Shown here: piece after piece, positions 1 to 31,231 of the stretch | Layout: each line of letters opens with the position of its first letter | How positions within the stretch are numbered: position 1 is the first letter of the stretch | Origin: Trueperaceae bacterium | GTDB lineage: Bacteria; Deinococcota; Deinococci; Deinococcales; Trueperaceae | Assembly (NCBI GenBank): GCA_019454765.1 | Contig: JACFNR010000029.1 | Span: 1-35,648 of the forward strand | Length of the DNA stretch: 35,648 nt | Direction: 5' to 3' | Made by a program: the position numbers and the translations under genes | The notes under the pieces: generated by a model | What the model was told of the DNA's origin: nothing | Databases searched by the model: none | Seen by the model: only the letters and a program-made list of their open reading frames with translations

Positions 1-896
1 GCGTGGTCAGCGCGGCCAACTCGATGGTGGCCGCCGCCGCCCCGCGCGAGCGCCTTGGCTACGCCATGGGTATGATGCAGACGGCGGCCTGGGCCGGCGC
101 CTCCGTCGGACCGATGCTCGGTGGCGCCCTCGAGTTCTTCTTCGGTTACCGCCTGTCGTTCGTGGTCACGGCCGCGTTGCTCCTGGCGGGCGGCCTGCTC
201 GTGCTGTTCGGCGTGCGGGAACGCTTCACCCCGCCCGCCGACCCCGGCAGGGGGCTGCGTGGCATGCTGGCCACCTGGCGCGAGGTGTTCCGGGCGCCGG
301 GCGTGCCCCTCGCCTACTTCCTGCGCTTCAGCGCCTGGCTCGGCCGCACGATGCTCGTGCCGTTCCTCCCGCTGTTCATCGCCACCATCACCGTGAAGCC
401 GGACCTGGCCGGGATGTACACGGGGCTGGCGATCGGGCTCGCAGCGGGCTCGTCCACCCTCAGCGGCGTGGTGCTCGGGCGCCTCTCCGACCGCGTCGGT
501 TACCGCGTCATCCTGGTGGCCTCGACCTTCGCCTGCGCCGCCTTCTACGTCCCCATGGCCTTCGTCACCAACGTGCTCCAGCTCATCTTCGTGAACGTGC
601 TGATCGGCCTGGCGACGGGCGGGGTGCTGCCCGCCATCTCGGCGATGCTGGCGCACCTCACCCCGCGCGCCGCGGCGGGCTCCGTCTACGGCATCGACAA
701 CTCCGTCGCGGCCGCGTCCCGCGCCCTCGCGCCCATGGTGGCGGGCGCCGTGGTGACGCTTACGAGCCTGCCCGGCCAGACCGACTACCGCACGATCTTC
801 CTCGTCACCGCGGCGCTCTTCGTCCTGACTGGCGCGGTGGCGGCGTGGCGGCTGCCGCGCCGGGAAGGCGCCGGGCCGGGCCAGGGCGCGCCTTGA
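1..896 (+). CDS. MFS transporter, drug-efflux type (5' end outside the window)
   Basis: This is the C-terminal ~297 residues of a major facilitator superfamily permease, a proton-coupled transporter of the inner membrane. The reading frame is open at the left edge, so the true start lies upstream. What remains begins near TM4-TM5, with the typical G-Y-A-M-G and G-P-x-L-G-G motifs around residues 19-41 that drug/H+ antiporters of the DHA1/MdtG type carry after TM4. It then has a central hydrophilic loop (about 75-100), and the second six-helix half with a G-R-L-S-D-R-V-G-Y-R motif (about 159-168), the usual MFS motif A repeat. The stop (894-896) lies inside a 32-bp tandem duplication. The substrate cannot be told. 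Next downstream is the thiamine locus, but nothing ties this gene to thiamine. Confidence 0.85.
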   Translation, partial: VVSAANSMVAAAAPRERLGYAMGMMQTAAWAGASVGPMLGGALEFFFGYRLSFVVTAALLLAGGLLVLFGVRERFTPPADPGRGLRGMLATWREVFRAPGVPLAYFLRFSAWLGRTMLVPFLPLFIATITVKPDLAGMYTGLAIGLAAGSSTLSGVVLGRLSDRVGYRVILVASTFACAAFYVPMAFVTNVLQLIFVNVLIGLATGGVLPAISAMLAHLTPRAAAGSVYGIDNSVAAASRALAPMVAGAVVTLTSLPGQTDYRTIFLVTAALFVLTGAVAAWRLPRREGAGPGQGAP

Positions 897-942
897 CGCC
901 GCCGGTGACGGGCCAGGGCGCGCCTTGACGCCGCCGGTGACG
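879..942. repeat. perfect 32-bp tandem duplication
   Basis: Two identical 32-bp units lie head to tail at 879-910 and 911-942. The first unit carries the last codons and stop of the MFS gene. Each unit contains a TTGACG hexamer (893-898 and 925-930), and the second hexamer is correctly placed to be the -35 box of the thiB promoter. The unit length is not a multiple of three. The duplication therefore copied the coding end and the -35 hexamer together. Confidence 0.95.
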
Positions 943-953
943 GGCGGTAGTTT
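925..953 (+). promoter_or_regulatory. sigma-A promoter of the TPP riboswitch-thiB transcript
   Basis: A TTGACG -35 box (925-930) is followed by exactly 17 nt and a TAGTTT -10 box (948-953). A start about 7 nt further on falls at about 960, where the first strand of riboswitch helix P1 begins (958-964). Promoter and aptamer therefore support each other. Confidence 0.75.
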
Positions 954-957
954 CGGG

Positions 958-1049
958 GCGTCACCAGGGGTGTCCGGCGCCTGTCGCGCCGGGCTGAGAT
1001 CAAACCCTAGGACCTGACCCCGATCATGCGGGCGGAGGGAGCGTGACGC
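958..1049 (+). promoter_or_regulatory. TPP riboswitch (THI element)
   Basis: The conserved THI-box blocks appear in order. GGGGTG is at 967-972, CTGAGA at 994-999, an ACCC strand at 1003-1006, GACCTGA at 1011-1017, and the final GATCATGCGGGCGGAGGGA block at 1022-1040. A 7-bp closing helix P1 forms between 958-964 and 1043-1049. The aptamer lies 48 nt before the thiB start codon. A Shine-Dalgarno-like GAGAGG (1082-1087) is the probable regulated element, with thiamine pyrophosphate binding repressing thiB. I see no clear intrinsic terminator between aptamer and gene, so control of translation initiation is more likely than premature termination; this is inference. Confidence 0.93.
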
Positions 1050-1096
1050 GGCGCCGAAAGCGCGGTGCGTCCGGTGGTGATGAGAGGACGTGCACC

Positions 1097-2191
1097 ATGC
1101 GCGTGTTCATCAGGTCGGCCCTACTCGTCTCGTTGCTGGCACTGACGGTGCCGGGCGCCGCCCAGCGCCTGACGGTGCTCACGCACGACTCCTTCGCCCT
1201 GCCGAAGGAGCTGGTCGACGACTTCACGGCGCGCACGGGCATCGCCGTCACGTTCCTGCAGGGCGGCGACGCGGGCGAGGTGGTCAACCGCGCCGTCCTC
1301 ACGCGAGCGAGGCCACTCGCCGACGTGCTGTTCGGCGTCGACGAGAGCCTCCTGCAGCGCGTGCGCACGGAGGGCATCTTCGAGCCGTACCTGAGCCCGG
1401 CGCTGGCGCGGGTGGACCCCGCGTTCAGGTTCGACCCGAGCGGGCTCGTGACGCCGATCGACGTCGGTTACGTGGTGCCGAACGTGGACGTCGGCTGGTT
1501 CGCGGCCAACGACCTGCCATTGCCGAGCGACCTCGCCGACCTGGCGGCGGCGCCCTACCGCGGGCTCACCGTGGTCCTCAACCCCGCCAGCTCGAGCCCC
1601 GGCCTCGCCTTCCTGGCGGCCACCGTGGCGCGCTTCGGCGACCCACAGGCCGGCATCGTCGGCACCGCTGGTGGAGACGGCGACTGGCTCGACTTCTGGG
1701 CCGACCTCGCCAAGAACGACGTGGCGGTGGCGGACGGCTGGACGGACGCCTACTACACGCGGTTCACGCGCTACGGCGGCGACAGGCCGATCGTGGTTAG
1801 CTACGCCACCAGCCCCGCCGCAGAGGTCATCTTCGCCGACGCCCCCTTGAGCGCCGCCCCCACCGCCAACCTGACATGCGCGGGGTGCGCCTACCGCCAG
1901 GTCGAGGCGGCCGGCATCCTGGCGGGAACGAAGCAGCGCGCCGCCGCCGAGGCGTTCATCGACTTCCTCTTGAGCCCAGCGGTGCAGTCGGCCATACCGC
2001 TGGCCATGTTCGTCGCTCCCGTCGTGGCGGACGCGCCGGAGCCGCCCGAGTTCCTCGCCTACGGGCGGGTGGCTCCGGGCGCGGTCGCGGCGCCCCTGGC
2101 CCCCGGCGTGCTGGAGGCGAACCAGGCGCGCTGGCTGAAGCAGTGGACCGCCGTGGTCCTACAGGGTCGGCTCCCGTCGAGCGTGAGGTGA
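1097..2191 (+). CDS. thiB: thiamine ABC transporter substrate-binding protein ThiB
   Basis: A 364-residue periplasmic solute-binding protein that captures thiamine (or its phosphates) for the ThiPQ importer. Residues 1-22 are a signal peptide (basic N-terminus, Leu/Val core, A-A before Q23). The mature protein starts with the L-T-V-L-T-H-D-S-F motif typical of ThiB/TbpA. The family's extracellular solute-binding fold runs through the rest. Start choice: ATG 1097 has GAGAGG nine bases upstream and gives a clean signal peptide; an in-frame GTG at 1043 lies inside the riboswitch and would add a charged tail before the signal. The 3' end overlaps the convergent ABC-exporter gene by 33 bp (2159-2191). 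The matching permease, ATPase and TPP-forming kinase lie 10 kb downstream (12330-16057). Confidence 0.92.
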   Translation: MRVFIRSALLVSLLALTVPGAAQRLTVLTHDSFALPKELVDDFTARTGIAVTFLQGGDAGEVVNRAVLTRARPLADVLFGVDESLLQRVRTEGIFEPYLSPALARVDPAFRFDPSGLVTPIDVGYVVPNVDVGWFAANDLPLPSDLADLAAAPYRGLTVVLNPASSSPGLAFLAATVARFGDPQAGIVGTAGGDGDWLDFWADLAKNDVAVADGWTDAYYTRFTRYGGDRPIVVSYATSPAAEVIFADAPLSAAPTANLTCAGCAYRQVEAAGILAGTKQRAAAEAFIDFLLSPAVQSAIPLAMFVAPVVADAPEPPEFLAYGRVAPGAVAAPLAPGVLEANQARWLKQWTAVVLQGRLPSSVR

Positions 2192-3976
2192 GGCGGCCGG
2201 CGGGCCGTCGCCCGCGGCCACCAACCACGACCGACCGGCGCTGACCTCCGCGAGGGTGCCCTGTGCCACGACCCGCCCTTGCTCGAGGACGACGACGCGG
2301 TCGGCCCGCTCGAGGGCGGCGCGGCGGTGGGAGACGACGAGGCAGGTGACCCTCGACCCGTCCTCTCCCGGCGTCCGGGCGGCGAAGATGCCGTCCCAGA
2401 GTCGACGCTCCGTCTCGATGTCGAGGGCGCTCGAGATGTCGTCGAACACCAGGAGCTCCGCGCGGCGCAGCAGCATGCGGGCCGCGGCCGCGCGTTGCAC
2501 CTGCCCGCCGGAGAGGCGCACGCCGCGCGTGCCGACCTCCGCCTCGAGCCCCCCCGTGAGGGTCGCCAGGTCCGGCCCGAGCACGGCGAGTTCCAGGGCT
2601 TCGGTGACCTCGGCGTCCGTCAGGTCGGAACCCAGGAGCACGTTCTCGCGCAGCGAATCCGAGAAGAGGCGCGGCACCTGGGGCGTGTAGGCGCTGCGCG
2701 GCGGCACGAAGAACGACGCGGCGTCGGTCACCTCGCGACCGTTCCAGCTGACCGTCCCGGCCTGCTTCGGGACGAGCCCCAGCAGCGCCCGCAGGAGGGT
2801 CGTCTTGCCCGCCCCCACCCTGCCGGTCACGACCACGAACTCGCCGCGCTCGACGGTGAAGGTCACGTCCTCGACACCGCGAGCGTCGCCGTGACCCGCG
2901 GTGAGGCCGGCCACGTCGAGGCGTCTGAACGGCTCCGGCCGCGGAGCGCCCGCCACGAACGGCCGCTGGGGCCGCTCGAGGTCGTGGTTCCTGGGCGTGA
3001 CGACGGCGGCCACGGGCGCGTCGACGAGCAGGCGCCCGAGCCGCTCGAAGGCGACGCCGGTGCGGCGGTGCTGCACCACCATCAACCCCATGAACGACAT
3101 GACCCCCGTCAGGCGGGGCAGGAACGTCACGAAGAGCGCGAAGTCTCCGACGGTGAACGTGCCCGCCTCGAGCCGGGAGGCGCCGAGGAGCAGGATGATC
3201 CCCGTGGCGATGTTGACCATGTTGTCGGTGACGCTCCTGAAGAGCTCGGTGAGGAGCGTGTCCCTGAGCGCGGTGCGCTTGCGGACGGCGTTGAGGGACG
3301 CGAAGCGTCGCAACACGAAGGGCTCGCGGCCCGACGCCTTGACGGCCTGCACGCTGCCGAAGGTCTCGCCCAGGAAGTCCGTCACGCGGCTGGTGGCCTC
3401 GCGGCTGAGGCGGCGGGCGGCGCGGATGTGTGGCCGCAGCACCCCCGTGAGCACCACGGTCGAGGCCAGGGGCACGCAGGCGAGCAGCGTCATGAACGGG
3501 TCGACGAGCAGCATGGTCGCGAGCGCCAGGAGCGCGTAGGCCGCGAACCCCCAGAAGTCGCACCAGTGCTCGAAGTACTCGCCGATGTCGTTGACGTCGT
3601 CGCGGAAGCGCGTGACGGCCTCGCTGGGCGAGTCGGGCAGCCGCCGCGACCCGTGCGCCTCGAGGAGGTAGCTCAGCAGCGCGCGCCGCACGTGCAGGGT
3701 CAGCTCGAGCCACCACGTCGCCCAGGTGTAGATGCCGCCCACGAAGAGGAGGATCCTCACCGCGTCGACGCTCAGGCCGAGCGCCAGGTAGGTCCAGGCG
3801 TTGAGGCCGGCCGCCTGGGCTCCCGAGAGGGCGTCGAACAGCCCGCGCATGGCCAGGGCGAACAGCACCGGCACGGCGTGGATGAGCGACCACAGCGTGG
3901 CCGTGAGCACGAAGTACCAACGGCGCTGGCGGCCGAGCGCCAGCGCGAGCCGCAGCGGGTTGGACGAGAAGGTCAT
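2159..3976 (-). CDS. heterodimeric ABC exporter, subunit with degenerate Walker B
   Basis: A 605-residue half-transporter: a six-helix membrane domain (about 1-310) and a nucleotide-binding domain (about 350-590). Visible motifs are Walker A G-R-V-G-A-G-K-T (385-392), Q-loop Q433, a canonical LSGGQ signature (488-492), Walker B ending D512-D513, and switch H550. The catalytic glutamate after Walker B is replaced by Asp513, as in the non-catalytic partner of heterodimeric exporters such as TM287/288. The upstream partner gene (3973-5799) has the opposite defect, a normal DE and a degraded signature. The two genes overlap by 4 bp (ATGA), so they are translationally coupled. Likely an inner-membrane multidrug, lipid or peptide exporter; the substrate is unknown. 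Its 3' end overlaps thiB by 33 bp and no terminator is visible. Confidence 0.92.
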   Translation of the reverse strand: MTFSSNPLRLALALGRQRRWYFVLTATLWSLIHAVPVLFALAMRGLFDALSGAQAAGLNAWTYLALGLSVDAVRILLFVGGIYTWATWWLELTLHVRRALLSYLLEAHGSRRLPDSPSEAVTRFRDDVNDIGEYFEHWCDFWGFAAYALLALATMLLVDPFMTLLACVPLASTVVLTGVLRPHIRAARRLSREATSRVTDFLGETFGSVQAVKASGREPFVLRRFASLNAVRKRTALRDTLLTELFRSVTDNMVNIATGIILLLGASRLEAGTFTVGDFALFVTFLPRLTGVMSFMGLMVVQHRRTGVAFERLGRLLVDAPVAAVVTPRNHDLERPQRPFVAGAPRPEPFRRLDVAGLTAGHGDARGVEDVTFTVERGEFVVVTGRVGAGKTTLLRALLGLVPKQAGTVSWNGREVTDAASFFVPPRSAYTPQVPRLFSDSLRENVLLGSDLTDAEVTEALELAVLGPDLATLTGGLEAEVGTRGVRLSGGQVQRAAAARMLLRRAELLVFDDISSALDIETERRLWDGIFAARTPGEDGSRVTCLVVSHRRAALERADRVVVLEQGRVVAQGTLAEVSAGRSWLVAAGDGPPAASPHARREPTL

Positions 3977-5799
3977 GCCAGTTCCTCCAGGACGCCGGCG
4001 TGGGAGCCCGACGCCGGTGCGTCCGGATCGAGAGCGGCGCGGCGCAGGCGGGCGTAGCGGGAGCGCGGGTCGGCGGCCAGCGCGCGGCGCGGACCGAACT
4101 CCGCCACGCGGCCACCGTCCATTACCAGGATCGAGTCGACGCGCTCCACCGTCTCGAGGCGGTGCGCGATGACGATGGCGGTGCGCCCCGCGAGGAGGCG
4201 CTCCAGCGCCGCCTCCAGCCGCAGTTCCGTGGCGGGGTCGAGGCGCGACGACGGCTCGTCGAGCACGATGAGCCCCGGGTCGAGGAGGAAGACGCGCGCG
4301 AAGGCCACGAGCTGCGCCTCGCCGGCCGACAGGTTCCGGCCGCCCGAGTCGATGACGGTGTCGAGGCCGGCGTCCTGGCGCTCCAGCCAGTCGAGCATGT
4401 CGAGCTCGGCCAGCACGGCGAGGATGCGGTCGTCGTCGACGCCGTCGTCGAAGAAGGTCAGGTTGTGGCGGAGCGTCCCCCTGAAGAGCTGCACCTCCTG
4501 CGAGACGAGGCCGACGCGCGCCCTCAGGGCGTCCAGGTCGGCCTCGGTGGCGTCGACGCCGCCGAGGCGCACCCGCCCCGCCACGGGGTCGTAGAGGCGG
4601 AAGAGGAGCCTGGTGAGGGTCGTCTTCCCCGAGCCGGTGCGGCCCAGCAGGCCGAGCCGCTCCCCCGGCGCGAGCCGGAAGCTCACGTCGTCGAGGGTGA
4701 GCCGCTCCGGGTCCTCGTCCGGGTACCTGAAGCTGACGCGCTCGAAGGAGACGCTCAGCGGACCGGGAGGCAGCGCCAGCTCGCCGCGGCGCGGCAGCGC
4801 CGACGAGAGGGCCATCAGCTCACCCACGCGCTGGGCGCCGGCGCCCGCCTTCTGCAGCTCCTGGAGCTGCTGCGTGATCTGCTCGACGGGGTTCTGCAGC
4901 ATCAGCAGGTACTGGAACACCATGTAGGCGGCGCCGACGGTGAGCGCGCCGCGGCCGACGAGGAAGATGGACGCCCCGACCGTGACGGCCGTGCCGACGA
5001 CCATCAGCCCGTAGCCGGACAGCCACACCACGCTCCGCAGCATCCAGGCCCGCCTTGTGTCGTGGTAGACGCCTCGCATGACCGCGCCGAAGCGGTGCAT
5101 CACGTACGCTCCGGCGCCGTTGGCGCGCAGGTCGTCGAGGCCCTGCAGCCTCTCCTCGATGAAGCCGAACAGCTTCGCGCTCGCCTCCCGCTCGAGGCGC
5201 GTGGCCGGCACACCGGCGCGCCGCGTTCGCGACAGGACGACGAGCTCGAGCAGCACGAAGGCCGTCAGTACCGCGCCCATCGCCGGGTTCTCGAGCCACA
5301 GCGCCACCAACACGCCGACCAGCAGGAGCGCGCCGCCCAACACCCGCACCGCGAAGACCGACAGGAAGTTGGACAGGGCGGTGACGTCGCCGTCGATCCT
5401 CTCGATCATCTCGCCCGGGGTGCGGGCGTTGTGGAACGCCATGTCGAGGCCCAAGGTGTGCGCGGTGAGGTCCTCGCGCAGCAGGTTCGTCGCCGTCCAG
5501 CCGACGGCGGCCGCCACGTAGGTCGCGACCGCGCCCAGGAGCTGGGTCAGCAGGGCGGCGACGAGGAAGGCGACCGCGATCTTGACGAGTTCGGCCTCGG
5601 GCGCGGCGCCCATGGCGCCGTCGATGAAGGACCTCAACAGTTGCGGCACGAGAAGCTGCAGGCCGGTGGCCAGCAGGAGCAGGGTGGTCATGATGGCCGC
5701 CATGGGCCTCTGCGGCGCCAGGTAGCGCCACAACACGGCGCCAAGGGAGTGGCCGCGGGGCGGTCGGTCGTTGCTCGGCGTGAGGGCGGCGTCGCTCAT
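3973..5799 (-). CDS. heterodimeric ABC exporter, catalytic-site subunit
   Basis: A 608-residue half-transporter with a membrane domain (about 25-315) and a nucleotide-binding domain (about 348-580). Motifs: Walker A G-R-T-G-S-G-K-T (386-393), Q-loop Q434, a degraded signature LSAGE (490-494) instead of LSGGQ, an intact Walker B with D514-E515, and switch H546. With the downstream subunit this predicts one working ATP site (this Walker A/B plus the partner's LSGGQ) and one degenerate site. Start choice: ATG 5799 is preceded by an AGGA-type Shine-Dalgarno. An in-frame ATG at 5877 has none and would add a hydrophilic Pro/Glu-rich tail of 26 residues. The gene is first in its operon, after a leader of about 240 nt that contains an upstream ORF and alternative hairpins. 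Confidence 0.9.
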   Translation of the reverse strand: MSDAALTPSNDRPPRGHSLGAVLWRYLAPQRPMAAIMTTLLLLATGLQLLVPQLLRSFIDGAMGAAPEAELVKIAVAFLVAALLTQLLGAVATYVAAAVGWTATNLLREDLTAHTLGLDMAFHNARTPGEMIERIDGDVTALSNFLSVFAVRVLGGALLLVGVLVALWLENPAMGAVLTAFVLLELVVLSRTRRAGVPATRLEREASAKLFGFIEERLQGLDDLRANGAGAYVMHRFGAVMRGVYHDTRRAWMLRSVVWLSGYGLMVVGTAVTVGASIFLVGRGALTVGAAYMVFQYLLMLQNPVEQITQQLQELQKAGAGAQRVGELMALSSALPRRGELALPPGPLSVSFERVSFRYPDEDPERLTLDDVSFRLAPGERLGLLGRTGSGKTTLTRLLFRLYDPVAGRVRLGGVDATEADLDALRARVGLVSQEVQLFRGTLRHNLTFFDDGVDDDRILAVLAELDMLDWLERQDAGLDTVIDSGGRNLSAGEAQLVAFARVFLLDPGLIVLDEPSSRLDPATELRLEAALERLLAGRTAIVIAHRLETVERVDSILVMDGGRVAEFGPRRALAADPRSRYARLRRAALDPDAPASGSHAGVLEELA

Positions 5800-5881
5800 C
5801 TGGTCCTCGTGGGTCTCCGGTGGTTCCCGGGACTGGTTCGGGTGCTTGGTAGGTTCCCTGTCAGGCCCACGCGGCATGAGT

Positions 5882-5921
5882 ACGACCGTGGGGGCCTCGG
5901 TCGGGGGCCGCCCACGGTCGT
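5882..5921 (-). promoter_or_regulatory. inverted repeat with competing pairings in the ABC-exporter leader
   Basis: Perfect 11-bp arms at 5882-5892 and 5911-5921 are separated by 18 nt and would form a stable hairpin in the minus-strand leader RNA. The arm nearer the gene has two further possible partners: a second copy of the complementary hexamer inside the loop (5898-5903), and a 6-nt strand further downstream (5866-5871). The structures exclude one another. No T-run follows, so a role as a plain terminator is not supported; a switching leader is inferred. Confidence 0.55.
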
Positions 5922-5939
5922 CGCGGTGCTCTCTTGGGG

Positions 5940-6038
5940 TCAGTGCGCGATGATCGCTAGGCAGTCCTCTCCCGTTCGCGGCTCGCCGGCGCCTGCGGCG
6001 CGGGCAGCGCTGACGGTATCGGGCAGGAGGATCGCCAT
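5940..6038 (-). CDS. possible 32-residue leader peptide (uORF) of the ABC exporter operon
   Basis: A 33-codon ATG-to-TGA frame starts 10 nt after the -10 box of the operon's predicted promoter, so its ATG would be within about 5 nt of the transcript's 5' end. It encodes a small Ala-rich peptide ending A-I-I-A-H, with no recognisable domain. It ends about 20 nt before the first arm of the competing hairpins and about 140 nt before the exporter start. A comparable layout is known for Bacillus subtilis bmrB-bmrCD, where translation of a leader peptide controls read-through into a heterodimeric multidrug ABC exporter. Open frames of this length are common by chance in GC-rich DNA, so the position next to the promoter is the main evidence. 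Confidence 0.45.
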   Translation of the reverse strand: MAILLPDTVSAARAAGAGEPRTGEDCLAIIAH

Positions 6039-6048
6039 CGCGAGGTGA

Positions 6049-6077
6049 ACTGTAGCGGTTCGGCCCGCCCTTGTCAA
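6049..6077 (-). promoter_or_regulatory. sigma-A promoter of the ABC exporter operon
   Basis: Reading the minus strand, TTGACA (6077-6072) is followed by exactly 17 nt and then TACAGT (6054-6049). This is the best sigma-A promoter in the window. Transcription would begin near 6042, giving a leader of about 240 nt before the exporter start at 5799. Confidence 0.8.
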
Positions 6078-6171
6078 TCGCACCGCGCGGCTCGCCGTGC
6101 GCGGGGGCGGCCCCGCGCTCAGGGCGAGGCGCGTCCGACCCGCCGCGGCGTTAGCTGTCGCGCCGGCGCGC

Positions 6172-6177
6172 TATCCT
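6172..6177 (+). promoter_or_regulatory. probable -10 box for addBA
   Basis: TATCCT lies 36 nt before the addB ATG, with no convincing -35 box. It would give a leader of roughly 30 nt carrying the GGAG ribosome-binding site at 6206-6209. The 5800-6213 gap otherwise holds only the divergent ABC-exporter leader and its promoter. Confidence 0.4.
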
Positions 6178-6213
6178 CCCGGGGTAACGACCGCGCGGGT
6201 TCATTGGAGTCGA

Positions 6214-8853
6214 ATGCTCAGCAGGCACACCCACGTCGTCCCCGGCAGGCTCGGCGAGCGCCGCCTGCGAGACGCCCTCGCGGCGGGCGGCGGTCTCGGT
6301 CACGTGATCACCACGCTGCCGGGGCTGGCGGCGCGGTTGGCGGGCGGCTTCGCGCGGGCGGCGACCGGGGCCGAGGTGCGCGCCGCCCTGCAGGAGCCGC
6401 CGGCGGCCGAGTTGACCACGCTGGCCGGCGTCGCCGTCATGCCCGGCTTCGCCCGGGCCGCGGCGCGGACGCTGCAGGCCGCCTGGCACGCGAACGTCGA
6501 CCTGGGCGAGCGCGCCACCGCGGGCGGGCGCTGGGCGGAGCTGGCCGCGCTCGAGAGGCACGTGGCCGCCTCCCTCGTGGGCGGCGCTCTACTGCCGCCG
6601 CGCCTCGTGGCGCTCGCTCGCGCTCGCGTCGCCAGGGCGCCCCGCCTCACGGGACCCGTCACGCTGCAGGGCCTGGCCGACGTGCCGCCCCTCTACCGCC
6701 CGCTCGTCGAAGAGCTCGCCGGCGTCGTGCCCGTTGCCTGGCGGGGCGCCTCGCCGCCGGCCCCGGCCTGGTTGCCGGCCACCGTGGCGTGGGCGGCGCC
6801 GGAGCCGCGGCCCCTGCCGACCGCGACCGTGGTGGGGTGCGCCGACCCGGACCACGAGGCGCTCGAAGCGCTCGGGTGGGCACGCGAGTTGATCGCCTCG
6901 GGTCGCCGGCCCGAGGAGGTCCTGATCGCCGCCGTTGACACCGCCGCCTACGACGACGCCATCGGCTTCCTGGCGGCGGAGGCCGGCATCCCGCTGCACG
7001 CGGCGCACGGCGTGAGGGCGCTCTCGACGCCCGTGGGCCAGGTCGTGGCCGCCCTGGCTGACGCCCTCGTGCGCGGTCCCGGGCAGGTCGAGGTCAGGCG
7101 CCTGGCTACCGCGGCGCGGCGCGCCAACGTGGGTCCGCTCGGCCTCGTACCCGAGGACTGGGCGGACGAGCTGGCGCCCGACGCCTTCCTAATCGACACG
7201 GAGCGGTGGCGGCGCGCGCTACGGCCCCTGGCGGCTCGCGAGTCACACCAGGCCGAGATCATCGTGCGCCTCGTCGCCGACCTCGAGCTCGGCCTCGCCG
7301 CGGCGCGGCGCGTCGGGGCGCGCTGGTTGGACGGCCGCGCGGCCGAGCTGTGGCGCCGCGCCATGGCCGACGGCCCGCCCGGCGTACTGGAGCAGACGTT
7401 GGCGCGCCTGCGGGTGGACGACGGCGTCGATCCGGCCGCCGCCGTCCTGTGGGGGCCGGCGGCCGCGCTCACGGCCTGGCCCCGCCCTCACGCCCGCCTA
7501 CTCGGCCTGTCGGCGCGCGGCTGGCCGCGCCGCGGCTCCGACGAGGACCCGCTCCTGCCGGAGCGGATCAGGCCGGGCCTGGTGCTCCGCGAGCGCAGCG
7601 TCACTCGCCAGGACGGCGACGCCTTCGCCGCGCTGGTCGCGGCGGCGCGGACGGAGCTCGTCGTGTCGTACCCCCGCAGGGATGCGAGGGGCCGCGTGGC
7701 GCCGCGTAGCCACCTCCTCGCCAGCCTGGCGGGCGCCACCACCGTCGAGGCGCGACGTGGCGCTGGCGATCGCGCCGTCACCGAGGCATACCGCCGCGCC
7801 GCCAGGCCCGCCGAGCTCGCCTCCGACCCCAGGCAGCGGCGGGCCGCCGCGGCGTACAGGGCCGCCTACTCGCCGGACCTCACGCCGCACGACGGCGTGG
7901 TGCGGCCCGATCACCCCGCGCTCGCGGCGGCGCTCGAGCGGGTGCAGTCCGCCACCTCGCTGCGGAGCCTGTTGCTCAACCCTCACGGTTACGTGGTCCG
8001 TTACGCCCTGCGCTGGGAGCGCCCCGAGCCGCGCACGGAGCTGCTCGCGCTCGACCCGGCCGCCCTAGGTACCCTGCTGCACCAGGTGCTCGAACGGGCG
8101 GCGCGGCCCGCGGCAGGCACGGACGGTGCCCCGCCGGACGTGAAGGGGAGGGTGGCGGCGGCGTGCCGGACGGTCGGCTCCGCCTGGGAGACGCGTTACC
8201 CCCTGCCACCGGAGGCGCTGTGGCGCAAGACGCTCGCGGCGGTGGAAGAGTGGGCCGTCTGGTCGCTCACGGTGGGAGCACCGCCCGGTTTCGGGGCCGA
8301 GAGCCACGTCGAGCTGCGCTTCGGCTACGCCGGGCAGGCCGCGCCTGCCGACGGGCTGCCCTGGGACCCCAGCGCGAGCGTGTTCGTGCCAGGCACCACG
8401 GTCAGGGTGCGCGGCGTGATCGACCGCCTCGACGTCGATCGCGCCCAGCGGCGCGTCCGGGTCGTCGACTACAAGTCGGGTCGCCCGGTCGCCCGCCTCG
8501 GCGGCCTCGAGGGGGGCGCGGAGCTGCAGCGCACGCTCTACACCGCGGCCGTGCGGCAGCTGCTCGGCGCCGACTGGGACGTGGAGGCGCTGCTGGTGCA
8601 TCCGCGTCAGCGGGTGGTGCTGCCGCTCGAGGACCCCGACTCCCACGTGCCGGTCCTCACGGCCGCCGTGACGCTCGCGGCGCGGTCCCTCCTGGCCGGC
8701 AACGCTCTGGCGGGGCCGGCCCTGGCAGCGCCGTTCGAGGACGCGCGGCTCGCCTTCCCCGCCTACGGCGCCGACCGCTACCTGGAGCTGAAGGGAGCCG
8801 CCCTCGCCGCGGCGAGGGGCGAGCTGGACGAGCTCCTTGGCGGCGCCACGTGA
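6214..8853 (+). CDS. addB: AddB-like helicase-nuclease subunit of AddAB
   Basis: An 879-residue protein of the AddB family, the partner of AddA in the enzyme that resects double-strand breaks and feeds RecA in homologous recombination. The C-terminal PD-(D/E)XK nuclease is visible as R-G-V-I-D-R-L-D (about 736-743) and V-V-D752-Y-K754-S-G, then a Q-R-T-L-Y motif. The N-terminal part is UvrD-like but has no usable Walker A, as is normal for AddB. The whole protein has only two cysteines, so it cannot hold the four-cysteine Fe-S cluster of Bacillus AddB. It is shorter than Bacillus AddB (about 1170). Start choice: ATG 6214 has GGAG just upstream; an in-frame GTG at 6097 would add an Arg/Ala-rich tail and precede the likely promoter. 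The stop overlaps the addA start (GTGA). Confidence 0.85.
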   Translation: MLSRHTHVVPGRLGERRLRDALAAGGGLGHVITTLPGLAARLAGGFARAATGAEVRAALQEPPAAELTTLAGVAVMPGFARAAARTLQAAWHANVDLGERATAGGRWAELAALERHVAASLVGGALLPPRLVALARARVARAPRLTGPVTLQGLADVPPLYRPLVEELAGVVPVAWRGASPPAPAWLPATVAWAAPEPRPLPTATVVGCADPDHEALEALGWARELIASGRRPEEVLIAAVDTAAYDDAIGFLAAEAGIPLHAAHGVRALSTPVGQVVAALADALVRGPGQVEVRRLATAARRANVGPLGLVPEDWADELAPDAFLIDTERWRRALRPLAARESHQAEIIVRLVADLELGLAAARRVGARWLDGRAAELWRRAMADGPPGVLEQTLARLRVDDGVDPAAAVLWGPAAALTAWPRPHARLLGLSARGWPRRGSDEDPLLPERIRPGLVLRERSVTRQDGDAFAALVAAARTELVVSYPRRDARGRVAPRSHLLASLAGATTVEARRGAGDRAVTEAYRRAARPAELASDPRQRRAAAAYRAAYSPDLTPHDGVVRPDHPALAAALERVQSATSLRSLLLNPHGYVVRYALRWERPEPRTELLALDPAALGTLLHQVLERAARPAAGTDGAPPDVKGRVAAACRTVGSAWETRYPLPPEALWRKTLAAVEEWAVWSLTVGAPPGFGAESHVELRFGYAGQAAPADGLPWDPSASVFVPGTTVRVRGVIDRLDVDRAQRRVRVVDYKSGRPVARLGGLEGGAELQRTLYTAAVRQLLGADWDVEALLVHPRQRVVLPLEDPDSHVPVLTAAVTLAARSLLAGNALAGPALAAPFEDARLAFPAYGADRYLELKGAALAAARGELDELLGGAT

Positions 8854-11800
8854 CGGGCCTCGCGCCGACCCCGCTGCCGGACGCCGCAGCACGCCGCACG
8901 GCGCTGACGGACCTCGGTCACGGCCTGCTGGTGGAGGCGGGCGCGGGCTCCGGCAAGACCGCGGTGCTTGCGGGCCGCGTGGCGTGGCTGCTTGCCGGCG
9001 GGGTGGAGCCACGGCACGTGGCCGCCATCACCTTCACCGAGCTCGCGGCTGCGGAGCTGGCTTCTCGGGTGCGCGACTACGTGACGAGCCTCGCGGCCGG
9101 CGTCGTCCCGGCGCCGCTCGAGCCGGCGTTCGGCGCCGCCCCGACGGTCGAGCAGCGCCGCCACCTCGCGGCCGCCCTCCCGGCTCTCGACGAGCTCACC
9201 AGCACGACCATCCACGGCTTCGCGCGCGAGCTGACGCTCCCGTACCCGGTCGAGGCGGGGATCGACCCGGGTGCCACCGTGCTCGACGCCGCGGAGGCGG
9301 AACTGCTGTTCGGCGACGTCTTCGGCGCCTGGTTGCGGCGCAGGCTCGGCGGGCGGGCTCGGGACGACGCCACGGACCCGCTCGTCCATCTCATGTCTCA
9401 CCCGGCGGCGCCCGGGCCGGACGCCGTAAAGGAGCTGGCGTTGCTGCTGCGCGCCCACCCCGGCGCCGCGACGCCCGCCGCCGACGTGACCGGCGCGGTA
9501 AGGGGCGCCTTGGCCGCGGCCGCCGCGCTCTGCGGCCTCATAGGCGCCGAGCCGGCGGCGCCCGAGCCGTTGGTGGCCCTGGCGGCGGCGGTGGACGCCT
9601 GGCTGGCGCCGATCGCCGCGGCCCCAAGCACCACCGAGGCCGCCACCGCCGCGCTGTCGGGCGAGCCCGGTCCGCTCTTCACGCAGCAGCTGACCGTCAG
9701 GGCGCTCCGGTCCAAGGGGGCCTGGCTCGAGGCGGTGGCGGCAGCGGGGGCGTCCAAGGCCGCGGCCGCCGCCGGCTACGCCGCGCTGCAGGAGGCCCAC
9801 GGCGCCTTCGCTGCCGCGGCCGTGGCCCTCACGGCCGCGAGCGTGGACCACCTCCTCGGCCTGCTGGTCGCGGCCCTGCGCGAGATGTTGGCCGAGTACG
9901 GCGCCGCCAAGCGCGAGAGGGCAGCGGTCGACTTCGACGACCTGATCGCGAACGCGGCGGCGCTCCTCCGCGAACACGAGGTCGTGAGGGCCGAGCTGGC
10001 CGCGCGCTACCGCCACGTGCTCGTCGACGAGTTCCAGGACACGGACCCGTCGCAGGCCGAGATCGTGTGGCGCCTCACCGGCGAGCCGCGGCCGGGCGAC
10101 TGGCGCGCTTGGCCGGCGCGCCCCGCAGCCAGGTTCGTCGTGGGCGACCCCAACCAGTCCATCTACCGCTTCCGCGGTGCGGACCCCGGCACCTACGCCG
10201 CGTTGCGAGGCGGGCTGGAGCGCGACCCCGGCTCGCTGACCCTCGCCCTCACGGAGAACTTCAGGTCGGTCCCCGCCCTCCTGGCCAACGCCAACCTCAC
10301 CTTCGCCGCGCCCTTGTCGGCGTCCGGCCAGGCGGGCTACGCGAACCTCGGCGCCCGCCGCCCGGACGGGCGGGGCGCGGCGCTCGTGCGGCTCCAGGTC
10401 GGGGCGGCCGCCGAGCCGACCGCGGCCGGGGGCGACGGCCCCCACGCGGCGGCCGAGCGCTACATGGAGGAGAAGCGCGCGGCAGAGGCGCGGGCGGTGG
10501 CGAGCCTCTGCCGGCGGCTGGTGGACGGCGCGACCGATTTGCTGGACGGACCGGTCAGTCCAGGCGACATCGCGCTCCTCGCCCCCACCAGCACGGGTCT
10601 CGAGCACCACGAGCGTGCGCTCGAGGCGCTCGGCCTCGACGTCGCCAGCCAGGCGGGCAAGGGGTTCTACCGACGACAGGAGGTGCAGGACATGGTGGCC
10701 CTCACCTGCGCGCTCGCCGACCCCGCCAACACCCTCGCCCTCGGCGCCTTCCTCCACGGCCCGATGGTCGGCGTCACGCTGGAGGAGCTGCTCGACGTCG
10801 CCCACGCCCTCGCCGCGGCCGGCGCGGAGCCGCAGCTGAGCCTCCGCACCGACCCCGCCCTCGTGCCCGTCCCGCGCGTCGCCGAGGTCATCGCCGCCCT
10901 CGCGCCCCTGTCCGCGGCGCGCGCGACCACCCCGCCCCACGCCCTCCTCGCGGCGGCCTGCGAGGCGCTGGAGCTCAGGGCCACCCTGGTGAACCGCCAC
11001 CCGCGCAGCGCCGAACGGGCGCTCGCCAACCTCGACCGCTTCCTGCGGGCGGCCAAGGCGTACGAGTCGCGCGGCCTGCAGGCCTACGCCGACGCCACCT
11101 GGCGCGCGTGGCTCGACACGGAGACCGCTCCCGAGGGGCAGGTCGACGCCGTGGAGGACGCCGTCACCCTCATCACCATGCACTCGGCCAAGGGCCTCGA
11201 GTGGCGCGTCGTCATACCCGTCGGGTCCATGGCAGGCCCGGCCAGGTGGCAGGAACCCTGGTACAGCCGTCACTCCGGCCGGCCTGTCATGAGCCTCCTC
11301 GGCCACGCCGGCTCGGACGCCGACGCCCTGCAGGAGGCGGAGCGCGCCGACCGCCGCGCCGAGCGCCTCCGGCTCTGGTACGTGACGGCCACGCGCGCCC
11401 GCGACCTCCTGGTCGTCCCGACGTTCGCGTTCGACGCCGCAACGGACGCCTGGTGCGACCTGGTCCCCTGGCAGGAGGTCGTGCCGTGGCGCACCGTGAC
11501 GGCCACGGAGGCGCCCACGCGCGCTGCGGCCTCCGGCCCCAGCGACCGCGGCCCGACGAGAGACGAGTTCGAGGCGCAATCCGCCGCGGTGGCCCGCGCC
11601 GTCAGGCACGTGGAGCGGCGCGCCCCAAGCCGGCGCGACGAACCGCCGGCGGCGTCGGCCGCCGCGACCGACGCCCCCGCACCACCGGCCCTGACGCCGG
11701 AGCTCGGCGAGTGGGTCCTGAGCACGCTCGACGCCGACGACGACGCCCTCCCCACCGACCGGCCCGCGGCAGGCACCACGCGCGGCGTGCTGCTTCACAA

Positions 11801-12248
11801 GCTCATGGAGGAGATCGTGGAGGGCGACACCGCGCCCACGCCGCCAGACCTGACGCGGCGGGCGGAGGAGCTGCTGGCGGCACTCGCCACGGACGACCCC
11901 GGCGTGGCGCCCGCCGACGTGGCCGCCATGGCGCACCGCGCCTGGCACGCCCCCGAGGTGCGGGCGTTGAGCGGGAGGCTGTGGGCCGAGGTGCCGGTGG
12001 CGGGCGTCGAACGCGATCCGGCTACCGGGGCCGAGGTCGTCTGGAGCGGGGTGGCCGACGCCGTGGCGATCGACGCCGCCGGCCACCCCGAGGCGGTGAT
12101 CGACTGGAAGTCGGACCGCGCCCCGACGGAACCGACGCTCGCCCGCTACCGGGAGCAGGTCCGCGCCTACCTTCGTCTCACGGGCGCGCCCCTCGGCCTC
12201 GTCGTCCTGGCGGCCTCCGGCGAGGTCCTGCGCGTCACGGCCCACTGA
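8850..12248 (+). CDS. addA: AddA-like ATP-dependent helicase/exonuclease
   Basis: A 1132-residue UvrD/RecB-type superfamily 1A helicase fused to a C-terminal nuclease. Motif I is A-G-A-G-S-G-K-T (30-37). Motif II is V-D393-E394-F-Q-D, followed by V-V-G-D-P-N-Q-S-I-Y-R-F-R-G-A-D (motif III), an E-N-F-R-S segment (motif IV), M-H-S-A-K-G-L-E-W (motif V) and Y-V-T-A-T-R-A (motif VI). The nuclease core is V-I-D1085-W-K1087-S-D with a downstream Q-V-R-A-Y-L motif. It is a 3'-5' DNA translocase that works with AddB in break processing. The GTG start (8850) overlaps the addB stop by four bases, so the two are coupled. The open frame extends upstream inside addB, but that part is a shadow. Next comes an 81-bp gap to thiP. 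Confidence 0.92.
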   Translation: MTGLAPTPLPDAAARRTALTDLGHGLLVEAGAGSGKTAVLAGRVAWLLAGGVEPRHVAAITFTELAAAELASRVRDYVTSLAAGVVPAPLEPAFGAAPTVEQRRHLAAALPALDELTSTTIHGFARELTLPYPVEAGIDPGATVLDAAEAELLFGDVFGAWLRRRLGGRARDDATDPLVHLMSHPAAPGPDAVKELALLLRAHPGAATPAADVTGAVRGALAAAAALCGLIGAEPAAPEPLVALAAAVDAWLAPIAAAPSTTEAATAALSGEPGPLFTQQLTVRALRSKGAWLEAVAAAGASKAAAAAGYAALQEAHGAFAAAAVALTAASVDHLLGLLVAALREMLAEYGAAKRERAAVDFDDLIANAAALLREHEVVRAELAARYRHVLVDEFQDTDPSQAEIVWRLTGEPRPGDWRAWPARPAARFVVGDPNQSIYRFRGADPGTYAALRGGLERDPGSLTLALTENFRSVPALLANANLTFAAPLSASGQAGYANLGARRPDGRGAALVRLQVGAAAEPTAAGGDGPHAAAERYMEEKRAAEARAVASLCRRLVDGATDLLDGPVSPGDIALLAPTSTGLEHHERALEALGLDVASQAGKGFYRRQEVQDMVALTCALADPANTLALGAFLHGPMVGVTLEELLDVAHALAAAGAEPQLSLRTDPALVPVPRVAEVIAALAPLSAARATTPPHALLAAACEALELRATLVNRHPRSAERALANLDRFLRAAKAYESRGLQAYADATWRAWLDTETAPEGQVDAVEDAVTLITMHSAKGLEWRVVIPVGSMAGPARWQEPWYSRHSGRPVMSLLGHAGSDADALQEAERADRRAERLRLWYVTATRARDLLVVPTFAFDAATDAWCDLVPWQEVVPWRTVTATEAPTRAAASGPSDRGPTRDEFEAQSAAVARAVRHVERRAPSRRDEPPAASAAATDAPAPPALTPELGEWVLSTLDADDDALPTDRPAAGTTRGVLLHKLMEEIVEGDTAPTPPDLTRRAEELLAALATDDPGVAPADVAAMAHRAWHAPEVRALSGRLWAEVPVAGVERDPATGAEVVWSGVADAVAIDAAGHPEAVIDWKSDRAPTEPTLARYREQVRAYLRLTGAPLGLVVLAASGEVLRVTAH

Positions 12249-12282
12249 CGGGCGGTCGGGGTGGCGGCTAGGCAGGCGGGTG

Positions 12283-12306
12283 CGCCGCGGGGCGCGCCGC
12301 GGGGCG
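12283..12306. repeat. 12-bp tandem repeat upstream of thiP
   Basis: Two perfect copies of a 12-bp GC-only unit lie at 12283-12294 and 12295-12306, in the short gap between addA and thiP, just before the thiP -10 box. No THI-box motifs occur here. The function is unknown and may simply reflect slippage. Confidence 0.7.
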
Positions 12307-12316
12307 GCGCCCGGCC

Positions 12317-12322
12317 TACACT
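12317..12322 (+). promoter_or_regulatory. -10 box of a leaderless thiP promoter
   Basis: TACACT is followed by 7 nt and the GTG start at 12330, the spacing at which transcription would begin on the start codon. No -35 box is visible. The arrangement matches other TANNNT-start pairs in this window (16828, 17281, 31349). Confidence 0.55.
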
Positions 12323-12329
12323 GGGCGCA

Positions 12330-13925
12330 GTGCCCCGCCACCTCCTGACGCGACTCTCGGGCGCGGCCGCGACGCTCTTCCTCGCCGCCTTCCTGGCCGT
12401 GCCGCTCGCCGTGATCGTCGGCCGCAGCCTCACGCCGGCGCCCGGCGAGGCGTTCGGCGCCGGCTTCCTCGCCGCCCTCGTCGACCAGTACTACCTCGGA
12501 CGCATCGCCTTCACGCTCCTACAGGCGCTCCTCTCCACCGCGTTGACGGTCGCGCTGGGGCTGCCGACGGCGCTGCTGCTCGCCCGTTACGCCTTCCGCG
12601 GCAAGCGCGCGCTGACGGCGGCCTTCACCGTGCCCTTCGTCATGCCGACGGTCGTCGCCGGCATCGGCTTCCTGGCGCTCGTCGGACCGCGCGGCGCGCT
12701 GGGAGTCGACCTGCGCGACACCCTCGCCGTCGTCCTGCTGGCGCACGTCTTCTACAACTTCGCGGTCGTGGCGCGAGTGGTGAGCGGCTTCCTCGCCGGG
12801 GTGGCGCCGCGCCTCGAGGAGGCCGCGGCCACCCTCGGCGCGACCGAGCGGCGGACGTTGTGGCGCGTCACGCTGCCGCTGGCGCTGCCCGCCACGCTCG
12901 CCTCTGCGTTGCTCGTGTTCCTCTTCTGCTTCACGAGCTTCGGCGTCATCGTCATCCTGGCGCCGGCGGCGCGCTTCGCCACCCTGGAGGTCGAGATCTA
13001 CCGCCTCACCGCCCGCCTCCTCGAGCTCGACGCGGCCGCCGCCCTCGCCCTCGTGCAGCTCGTGCTGATGGTCGGCCTCGGCTTCCTCTACACGCGTCTG
13101 CAGGAGCGACTGGCCGTGAGCGTGACACCGGGCGACGCCGCGCGTGCCCCGCGTGGCGGCGCCCGCGCCCTGGTCGGCGTCACGCTGCTCGCCACCGGCG
13201 CCCTCGTGCTGGCGCCGCTCGTCGCCCTGGCGGCGCGCTCGTTCGCGGCGCCCGGCGCGGACTGGCCCTCGCTCGGCAACTACGCGCGGCTGCTCGCGCC
13301 TTCGACGACCGTCGGCTTCACGGGCCTGTGGCCGGCCCTACGCAACTCGCTGGCGTTCGCGGTCGGCAGCGCCGGCCTCGCGCTGTTCATCGGCTTCCTG
13401 TTCGCTCACGCCGTCGCGCGCGGCGGTTGGCGTTGGCTCGATCAGGCCAGCCTACTGCCCCTCGCCACCAGCCCTGTGACGCTGGCGTTCGGCTACCTGC
13501 TCACCTACCCCCTCCTCGTCGGCTCCGCCTGGGGCGTGCCGCTCGCGCACGCGCTGCTCGCCTTCCCCTTCGTGACGCGCACCCTCCTACCCGCCTACCG
13601 CGCCCAACCGCCCGCGCTGGCCGACGCCGCCGCCACGCTCGGCGCCGGACCCCTGCGCACCCTGCTGCGAGTCGAGCTCCCGCTTCTGGCGCCCGCCACG
13701 GCGACGGCGTTCGCCTTCGCCTTCGCCGTGTCGATGGGGGAGTTCGGCGCCACACTGCTCCTGGTGCGCCCCGAGTACGCCACCCTGCCGGTGGCCATCT
13801 TCGACCGCCTCGGCAGGCCCGGCGCCGCCAACTACGGCGAGGCCCTCGCGCTCGCCGTCGTGCTCATGGTCATCACGGCCGTCGTGATGCTCGTCCTGCA
13901 GCGCCGCGGCCGCGGCGAGTTCTGA
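12330..13925 (+). CDS. thiP: thiamine ABC transporter permease ThiP
   Basis: A 531-residue inner-membrane permease made of two fused binding-protein-dependent transport domains, each with about six helices, as in ThiP and FbpB. Each half has an EAA loop that contacts the ATPase: E-E-A-A-A-T-L-G-A (about 163-171) in the first half and A-D-A-A-A-T-L-G-A in the second. Start choice: GTG 12330 comes 7 nt after a TACACT box and is followed by a normal basic N-terminus and the first helix; an in-frame GTG at 12261 adds a Gly/Arg-rich tail. It forms an operon with thiQ (88 nt downstream) and the TPP kinase. Identification as thiamine rather than iron transport rests on the kinase and on thiB. Confidence 0.88.
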   Translation: MPRHLLTRLSGAAATLFLAAFLAVPLAVIVGRSLTPAPGEAFGAGFLAALVDQYYLGRIAFTLLQALLSTALTVALGLPTALLLARYAFRGKRALTAAFTVPFVMPTVVAGIGFLALVGPRGALGVDLRDTLAVVLLAHVFYNFAVVARVVSGFLAGVAPRLEEAAATLGATERRTLWRVTLPLALPATLASALLVFLFCFTSFGVIVILAPAARFATLEVEIYRLTARLLELDAAAALALVQLVLMVGLGFLYTRLQERLAVSVTPGDAARAPRGGARALVGVTLLATGALVLAPLVALAARSFAAPGADWPSLGNYARLLAPSTTVGFTGLWPALRNSLAFAVGSAGLALFIGFLFAHAVARGGWRWLDQASLLPLATSPVTLAFGYLLTYPLLVGSAWGVPLAHALLAFPFVTRTLLPAYRAQPPALADAAATLGAGPLRTLLRVELPLLAPATATAFAFAFAVSMGEFGATLLLVRPEYATLPVAIFDRLGRPGAANYGEALALAVVLMVITAVVMLVLQRRGRGEF

Positions 13926-13962
13926 AGCGCCTCCTCGGGGCCGGCCGCGAGGGACGCGCCGG

Positions 13963-13968
13963 TATGAT
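13963..13968 (+). promoter_or_regulatory. possible internal -10 box before thiQ
   Basis: TATGAT stands out in the GC-rich 88-nt gap between thiP and thiQ, 45 nt before the thiQ GTG. No -35 partner is evident. It could give an internal promoter for thiQ and the kinase. Confidence 0.3.
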
Positions 13969-14013
13969 GCAGCGCAGCGTGCCGCCCGCCACCCCCAACC
14001 CCGCCCCCGCGCC

Positions 14014-15039
14014 GTGAACCTGCGCCTCGAGCGACTCACGAAGCGGTTCGGCGCCGTGACCGCCGTCTCGGACGTCAGCCTCGACCTGCCGGCGGGCACC
14101 ACCCTCGCCCTGCTCGGGCCGAGCGGCTGCGGCAAGAGCACGCTGCTGCGGCTCGTGGCCGGACTCGAGACGCCGGACGGCGGCAGCGTCGCGCTCGGTA
14201 GCGAGGACCTCACCAGCGTGGCGCCGGCGAAGCGCGGCTTCGGGATGGTGTTCCAGGACTTCGCCCTCTTCCCTCACCTCGACGTGGCCGCCAACGTGGC
14301 GTTCGGCCTGGTGGAGGGGCGCGTGCCGGAGCCGGGGCGCAGCGCGCGCGTGGCTGAGCTGTTGGCGTTGGTCGGCCTGACCGGACTGGAGCGGCGTCGC
14401 GTCCACCAGCTGAGCGGCGGCCAGCAGCAACGGGTCGCGTTGGCGCGCGCGCTGGCGCCGACCCCCCGCCTGCTCCTCCTCGACGAGCCCCTCTCCGACC
14501 TGGACGCTCGCCTGCGCGAGCTCCTGAAGCTCGAGCTAAGGACCATCCTGGCGGGCTCCCCCGCCGGCGCCATCTACGTCACCCACGACCAGGTGGAGGC
14601 GTTCACTGTCGCCGACCGCGTGGCGCTCATGCGGGGCGGCGCGCTCGTGCAGGTCGGCCCGGGCGAGGAGCTGCTCGAGGCGCCGGCGGACGCGTGGGCC
14701 GCGAGGTTCCTTGGCCACGAGAACGTCTTCGAGGGCGCCGCGGGGGCACGGCTGCCCGTGAGCGCGCCGCCGGGGGGCGCCGTGCTACTGCGCGCCGACC
14801 GCACCCGGCTCGTGGCGCCGGACGCCGGCGGCGTCACGGCCACCGTGACCGCGGCGGGGCGCGAGGGACTGGCCTGGCGCCTCGTCCTGAGCGCGGGCGC
14901 GTGGGGGGTGCAGGTCGTGTGGCGCGGTCACGACCGCGAGCTGCCGGAGCGGCCCACGCCCGGCACGACGTTCGGCCTCGTGACGCCGCCCGACTCGTGG
15001 CGCGCGCTGGCCGGCACTGGGAGGACGGACGATGTCTGA
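14014..15039 (+). CDS. thiQ: thiamine ABC transporter ATP-binding protein ThiQ
   Basis: A 341-residue cytoplasmic ATPase that powers ThiBP. Visible motifs: Walker A G-P-S-G-C-G-K-S (about 35-42), Q-loop in V-F-Q-D-F-A-L-F-P-H, signature L-S-G-G-Q-Q-Q-R (about 133-140), Walker B L-L-L-L-D-E-P-L-S-D-L-D, and switch histidine in V-T-H-D-Q. It is longer than Escherichia coli ThiQ (about 232) because of a C-terminal TOBE-like extension (about 235-330), as in FbpC/PotA-type ATPases. From sequence alone it could be an iron or polyamine importer ATPase; position between thiP and a thiamine pyrophosphokinase makes ThiQ the best call. The start is GTG 14014. Its last eight bases overlap the next gene, so translation is coupled. 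Confidence 0.85.
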   Translation: MNLRLERLTKRFGAVTAVSDVSLDLPAGTTLALLGPSGCGKSTLLRLVAGLETPDGGSVALGSEDLTSVAPAKRGFGMVFQDFALFPHLDVAANVAFGLVEGRVPEPGRSARVAELLALVGLTGLERRRVHQLSGGQQQRVALARALAPTPRLLLLDEPLSDLDARLRELLKLELRTILAGSPAGAIYVTHDQVEAFTVADRVALMRGGALVQVGPGEELLEAPADAWAARFLGHENVFEGAAGARLPVSAPPGGAVLLRADRTRLVAPDAGGVTATVTAAGREGLAWRLVLSAGAWGVQVVWRGHDRELPERPTPGTTFGLVTPPDSWRALAGTGRTDDV

Positions 15040-16057: not shown

Positions 16058-16086
16058 CCGCCCCCCTGGCCTCGCTCCCGACAGGG

Positions 16087-16752: not shown

Positions 16753-16768
16753 GCCGGATCCTCTCTCA

Positions 16769-16789
16769 TGTGAGTCTCACAAGATGTTA
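16769..16789 (-). promoter_or_regulatory. aquaporin promoter with overlapping palindromic operator
   Basis: A perfect 6-bp inverted repeat, TGTGAG and CTCACA around one T, lies at 16769-16781. On the minus strand a TAACAT hexamer (16789-16784) sits just upstream, so the predicted transcription start (near 16777) falls inside the palindrome. A dimeric repressor could occlude it. The half-sites resemble CRP/FNR-family sites, but their 3-bp TGTGA-to-TCACA spacing is shorter than the usual 6. Confidence 0.45.
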
Positions 16790-16827
16790 ACCACAGCTTC
16801 GCGCTCCCGTGGCGGGGAGCCCGCCCG

Positions 16828-16833
16828 TATACT
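16828..16833 (+). promoter_or_regulatory. -10 box of a leaderless promoter (nucleotidyltransferase-like gene)
   Basis: TATACT is followed by 6 nt and the GTG start at 16840. No Shine-Dalgarno fits in this space, so the transcript is probably leaderless. No -35 box is seen 17 nt upstream. Confidence 0.65.
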
Positions 16834-16839
16834 CGCGAG

Positions 16840-17271: not shown

Positions 17272-17286
17272 CGCGCTTGCTAAGCT
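17258..17286 (+). promoter_or_regulatory. sigma-A promoter of the aspS leader
   Basis: TTGACG (17258-17263), exactly 17 nt, then TAAGCT (17281-17286). Seven nt later comes the ATG of a 20-codon frame (17294), so the leader transcript would begin at or next to its first codon. The -35 box lies within the end of the preceding gene. Confidence 0.75.
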
Positions 17287-17293
17287 TCCGCGC

Positions 17294-17412: not shown

Positions 17413-17461
17413 GTGGCGGGGCGGGGGCATGCAGTTGGGGTACCGGCCGAGGAGGCAGGCG

Positions 17462-18778
<1,317 letters not shown>

Positions 18779-31226: not shown

Positions 31227-31231
31227 GCGCC

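Follow-up and report, generated by a model that had tools for sequence, protein, structure and literature searches.

A putative ribosome-mediated transcription attenuator with a predicted leaderless sensor reading frame upstream of a heterodimeric ABC exporter in Trueperaceae, and leaders of the same build in Chloroflexota

We uncovered, ahead of a heterodimeric ABC exporter operon in a Trueperaceae bacterium, a leader that probably functions as a ribosome-mediated transcription attenuator, with a short upstream open reading frame (uORF) acting as a gauge of translation. It lies in a stretch of DNA of 35,648 nucleotides (hereafter the window), namely contig 29 of a genome of 2.9 Mb; the closest named relatives of this genome are Trueperaceae and Deinococcota genomes from metagenomes. 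The promoter, the uORF, the hairpin and the exporter genes are all on the minus strand (Table 1). Sequence comparison with related genomes supports the promoter, the frame of the uORF, a conserved motif near its 3′ end, a terminator-like hairpin, the pairing of the motif with this hairpin, the order and spacing of all these parts and their association with the exporter.

The mechanism that we propose on the basis of these elements is as follows: RNA polymerase would start near 6042 and a ribosome would load by leaderless initiation, on an AUG situated at the very 5′ end of the message. A ribosome that advances unhindered to the UGA (5942-5940) would cover or unwind the motif at 5959-5973; with the motif covered, the terminator 5911-5921/5882-5892 would fold and transcription would end before the exporter, leaving the pump off. 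If, instead, the ribosome is stalled early in the uORF by a ribosome-targeting drug, the presumed inducer, or is absent altogether, the motif would be free to pair with 5905-5913 once these are made, thereby trapping the 5′ arm of the terminator and permitting read-through into the exporter (pump on), which may in turn expel drugs from the cell.

Table 1. Predicted elements of the leader and the genes downstream of it, in window coordinates
Feature	Positions	Strand	Basis or remark
-35 box TTGACA	6072..6077	-	with the -10 box matches the consensus at 10 of 12 positions
-10 box TACAGT	6049..6054	-	predicted transcription start at about 6042; spacer 17
uORF, 32 codons + TGA, predicted leaderless translation	5940..6038	-	start-codon placement; frame-preserving indels
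Conserved motif GGGAGAGGACTGCCT, 3′ part of the uORF, proposed antiterminator strand	5959..5973	-	nucleotide conservation in 14 genera; pairing tests
Predicted terminator, 5′ arm	5911..5921	-	core CCGTGGG nearly invariant in Trueperaceae
Motif partner GGGCGGCCC, covering the last part of the terminator 5′ arm and the loop	5905..5913	-	sequence; nascent-RNA fold
Predicted terminator, 3′ arm	5882..5892	-	GTACTC next; no U-tract in the window's species
Second CGTGGG, probably what is left of the second tandem hairpin of relatives	5866..5871	-	comparison
ABC exporter subunit 1	3973..5799	-	intact Walker B Glu, degenerate LSAGE signature; likely ATG 5799 after GAGG
ABC exporter subunit 2, overlaps subunit 1	2159..3976	-	LSGGQ signature, degenerate Walker B FDD

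Both half-transporters carry ABC_membrane and ABC_tran domains and their ATP sites are asymmetric, which is the usual make-up of heterodimeric exporters. An in-frame upstream ATG at 5877 was considered as the exporter start and is unlikely, because the relatives start further downstream. The promoter, TTGACA-17-TACAGT (6077-6049), is the only sigma-70-type site recovered in scans of positions 1-20000 and 15649-35648, for which shuffled sequences lead one to expect 0.1 and 0.4 sites, respectively. The original prediction had named this site as the best sigma-A promoter and had placed a 33-codon frame close to the 5′ end of its transcript; both hold up, the latter as 32 codons and a TGA, with an ATG 10 nt past the -10 box and about 4 nt from the expected transcription start. 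The product of this uORF would be MAILLPDTVSAARAAGAGEPRTGEDCLAIIAH.

Among the 23 leaders with a readable promoter, every one displays TTGAC(A/G) at the corresponding position, and the distance from the -10 box to the start codon is bimodal: it is 6-10 nt, with no Shine-Dalgarno sequence, in 15 of them, including that of the window, and 24-45 nt, with a Shine-Dalgarno-like sequence, in the other eight. This bimodal spacing suggests that the uORF is translated, and that in the 6-10 nt group it is translated as a leaderless message. Between within-genus pairs, the indels in the uORF measure 3, 3, 3, 3 and 18 nt (one event may account for two of these cases), and the substitutions are spread evenly over the three codon positions without a third-position bias. 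To judge from these alignments, the frame of the uORF is kept while its peptide is not. A distinct arrangement is seen in L079: from the leaderless start, at the first AUG, a frame of 15 codons runs to a stop that overlaps the AUG of the frame carrying the motif, resulting in two coupled uORFs that apparently arose by local duplication.

We gathered the orthologues of the exporter from 151 genomes and read the DNA upstream of them. In Trueperaceae, the leader features a TTGACA promoter, a short uORF, the block GGGAGWGGWCTGCC at the 3′ end of the uORF, a spacer and a hairpin whose core is CCGTGGG/CCCACGG, in that order, with a T-run next in most species. A comparative alignment of the leader had been put forward in the original prediction as a check, and it finds the leader conserved across the genera of Trueperaceae; hence, the leader is more than a chance arrangement. 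A covariance model of it (R1) recovers 27 of the 39 Trueperaceae genomes at 1.5e-9 or better, with 28 strong matches (genome G013 has two leaders); the tally at an E-value of 0.05 is 29, including two weak partial matches. Two of the matches, L113 and L119, come from outside the training set, and the score of the window is among the lower ones (55.6 bits versus up to 79.5). The strong matches precede the exporter wherever the downstream DNA can be read, and in the Trueperaceae genomes without a strong match the orthologue is either missing or lost at a contig end. A second model (R2), which was built without the sequence of the window, though with that of a congener, recovers the window's leader at 2.5e-4.

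Beyond Trueperaceae, R1 returned nothing convincing in the remaining families of the order, and the leaders of the exporter orthologues L085, L091 and L092 from these families lack the element. In the latter two, which come from one such family, the exporter is preceded by a different leader; it contains the block TTTAGGCGACCGGAAGC, common to both, is without an Rfam match and is possibly another regulatory RNA. We also discarded L002, a second match in the window's own genome, as a 27-nt stretch devoid of the other parts of the leader. The attenuator-like leader itself has no match in Rfam at gathering thresholds.

The hairpin 5921-5911/5892-5882 starts 18 nt past the stop of the uORF and, as had been foreseen from the complementarity of 5882-5892 to 5911-5921, forms the minimum-energy structure in RNA folding, with 11 base pairs. 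Its stem is strongly conserved, and the T-run seen after it in many relatives is missing in the window; a scan of the window for terminator-like structures does not list this U-tract-less hairpin. In L069, L075, L082, L083 and L086, as in most of the Chloroflexota leaders described below, at least five T follow directly after the stem, and several GC-rich relatives show interrupted T-runs. Many relatives also have a second CGTGGG after the terminator, which in the Chloroflexota leaders is part of a second, full terminator. It could be argued from the absent U-tract and the interrupted T-runs of the GC-rich relatives that the hairpin works via Rho, translation or mRNA stability rather than intrinsic termination, with the uORF still sensing translation, and toiL, reported to be a uORF system coupled to Rho, offers a precedent (PMC12121999). 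We consider this unlikely: the T-runs of at least five residues listed above speak against it, and the hairpin sits about 80 nt before the start codon at 5799, whose Shine-Dalgarno sequence it leaves uncovered.

What opposes the terminator appears to be the end of the uORF itself. The original prediction had proposed 5898-5903 and 5866-5871 as alternative partners of the 3′ arm; these can indeed pair, albeit more weakly, but the comparison supports the pairing of 5959-5973 with 5905-5913 instead. Thus, switching by alternative partners of the 3′ arm proved wrong, and the competitor is the 3′ end of the uORF, which would pair with the 5′ arm of the terminator. In the window, C5964-U5959 pair with G5908-G5913 and G5967-G5966 with C5905-C5906, with an A-C mismatch between the two runs, and this pairing has a probability of 0.77 in a nascent transcript that ends short of the 3′ arm. 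It is better than expected from shuffled sequences, both when the loop is shuffled (p 0.03) and when the motif is shuffled (p 0.005); the combined values for 13 genera are 0.0013 and 2e-5, respectively. Swapping partners across the Trueperaceae genera yields a total as good in 369 of 20,000 trials, a modest signal; neither the shuffles nor the swaps fully correct for kinship. With the 3′ arm present, almost every leader has the terminator as its stable structure, the exceptions being L087 and L090. Hence, computationally, in nascent and full folds, shuffles and swaps, the antiterminator and the terminator come out as mutually exclusive. In the leaders examined, the uORF stop is 23-33 nt ahead of CGTGGG, a distance at which a terminating ribosome could disturb the motif yet spare the terminator.

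The motif:arm pairing is weak in three genera (g11, g14 and g16), where a local hairpin competes with it. In the leaders of these genera (e.g., L071, L073, L074, L076, L079 and L081), a strand immediately ahead of the terminator offers the motif another partner; in L074 this takes the form of GTGGTC with GACCAC, a rival to the proposed antiterminator.

The same data bear on the improbable scenario that the leader is an ancestral attenuator in decay, with termination lost in the window's species and the exporter expressed constitutively. The missing U-tract and the comparatively low R1 score would be in line with such decay, but the promoter, the uORF frame, the motif and the antiterminator pairing, with the probability and both of the shuffle values given above for the window, are all intact.

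Most genera read the motif in the frame GAG WGG TCT GCC, whereas the window, L064, L066 and L067 read it as GGA GWG GWC TGC; L119, from a congener of the window, uses the common frame. As the nucleotides of the motif are kept despite this change of frame, the sequence of the leader peptide seems not to matter in the Trueperaceae clade. The peptide TGEDCL, common to the window, L064 and L066, was entertained as a case of conservation in the uORF product and dropped, since the other genera and the congener use another frame.

Our analysis also indicates, at the level of sequence, that the element extends beyond the exporter locus, with leaders of the same build placed before many resistance-type genes in Chloroflexota. 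The exporter orthologues in the family of genome G151 are preceded by a promoter, a Shine-Dalgarno sequence, a uORF, the motif GGAGTGCGCCT, a terminator and often a second terminator. Other Chloroflexota orthologues (e.g., L139, L140, L143-L146 and L148, and many more) lack a leader of this build within the 330 nt inspected. R2 matches 65 of the 298 genomes of G151's class at an E-value of 0.001 or better, with few matches in a sample of the whole phylum. At the 24 loci that we read, the next genes code for ABC exporters or ABC-2 transporters, GNAT acetyltransferases, MFS pumps, one ABC-F protein and RtcB, and at two of the loci the downstream gene has no Pfam match. Given that the search used the RNA alone, this list of genes provides independent support for the sensing of translation stress, though not proof of it. 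The loci L158-L187 and L190-L200 make up a candidate translation-stress regulon in Chloroflexota that is absent from Rfam.

The pairing of the motif with the terminator arm is also seen in this phylum: across 30 Chloroflexota leaders, in a swap test that ignores shared ancestry, the native duplex is far better than the swapped ones (z -6.1; 0 of 20,000), and it remains so with one arm corrected (z -6.4) or with a single leader per motif type (z -5.2). As neither R1 nor R2 contains motif-arm pairs, this covariation is not a product of selection by the search. Within the Chloroflexota motif, Ser is encoded by AGT and Ala by GCG in 22 of 22 cases each, while the preceding Arg codon varies. These fixed wobble bases argue for a constraint on the RNA, though a role of the peptide may remain there. 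Many of the Chloroflexota uORFs end in RSAPxxR, which is reminiscent of arrest motifs of the RAPP type.

One could propose that the end of the uORF instead encodes an arrest peptide that is sensed in its nascent state and would stall ribosomes under a specific condition (R-S-A-C in most Trueperaceae and R-S-A-P in many Chloroflexota), the conservation being that of the peptide. RSA does recur in both phyla and RAPP-type arrest motifs are known (PMC10951233), yet we regard this explanation as very unlikely: the motif is translated in a different frame in the window, L064, L066 and L067 (TGEDC, MGVVC), and likewise in L130 and L134, the combination of fixed Ser and Ala codons with a variable Arg codon in Chloroflexota is what RNA pairing would demand, and the rest of the uORF is without third-position bias.

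Several weaker R2 matches lie outside this set. L205 and L206, from Thermus, look like coding sequence; L201, before an rnpA-like gene, looks false, and L202 is doubtful. L207 and L208, from other phyla, encode many Phe, Trp and Tyr residues in their uORFs, precede what seem to be genes for aromatic amino-acid synthesis and look like classical attenuators of the same layout. Control of the window's operon by a riboswitch or an amino-acid attenuator is highly improbable, for despite a general layout as in trp-type attenuators and the resemblance of the weak matches L207 and L208 to aromatic amino-acid attenuators, the uORFs of the window and its relatives that we inspected lack a run of control codons, there is no Rfam match, and the downstream genes are exporters and other resistance-type genes rather than biosynthesis genes.

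With regard to origins, it is conceivable, though we advance it tentatively and with some doubt, that the Trueperaceae and Chloroflexota leaders constitute one family by common descent across two phyla, which senses blocked ribosomes irrespective of the peptide, is wired to many resistance-type genes (ABC exporters, ABC-2 and MFS pumps, acetyltransferases, ABC-F and RtcB) and in many Trueperaceae relies on a leaderless uORF; the alternative is that the two sets of leaders converged on one layout. If the leaders act as proposed, they would supply a sequence-searchable marker for genes induced by ribosome inhibition in two little-studied phyla and would point to undescribed environmental drug-resistance genes. 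Moreover, they would imply that a switch of this kind can operate while its leader peptide is all but unconstrained, even once the frame has changed, and that its sensor ORF can be leaderless.

In the open-licence literature, outside which most subscription papers lie, we found no attenuator of this kind from Deinococcota or Chloroflexota. The closest parallel is bmrB-bmrCD of Bacillus subtilis, which is induced by lincomycin, erythromycin and chloramphenicol and provides a measured precedent for the mechanism (PMC4191407). The window's system is predicted to match it in combining a leader ORF, an antiterminator made from the 3′ part of that ORF, a terminator and a heterodimeric, putatively multidrug ABC exporter, and the logic proposed for it is identical. 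However, bmrB has 53 codons and the terminator is inside the leader ORF (PMC4191407), whereas in the window the uORF has 32 codons, is probably leaderless and ends before the proposed terminator. Thus, the earlier suggestion of an attenuated heterodimeric exporter outside the phylum of Bacillus is well supported by the comparison, with a layout that departs from that of bmrB; by analogy, the window's leader would work like that of bmrB-bmrCD and is not a demonstrated relative of it. The patAB genes of Streptococcus pneumoniae, in another phylum, likewise encode a heterodimeric ABC exporter and are reported to be preceded by a transcriptional attenuator (PMC4319486). The predicted succession of a promoter, a leader ORF, an antiterminator strand at or close to where the ORF ends and a terminator past its stop is shared with attenuators of the trp/phe type; unlike these, the window's leader is without control codons and serves exporters and resistance-type genes. 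Finally, in toiL of Escherichia coli a single uORF is reported to sense several drug classes (PMC12121999), and the window's uORF would be comparable as a general sensor of stalled ribosomes; toiL is reported to release a ribosome-binding site and to work through Rho, whereas the window's leader is proposed to act through a terminator hairpin.
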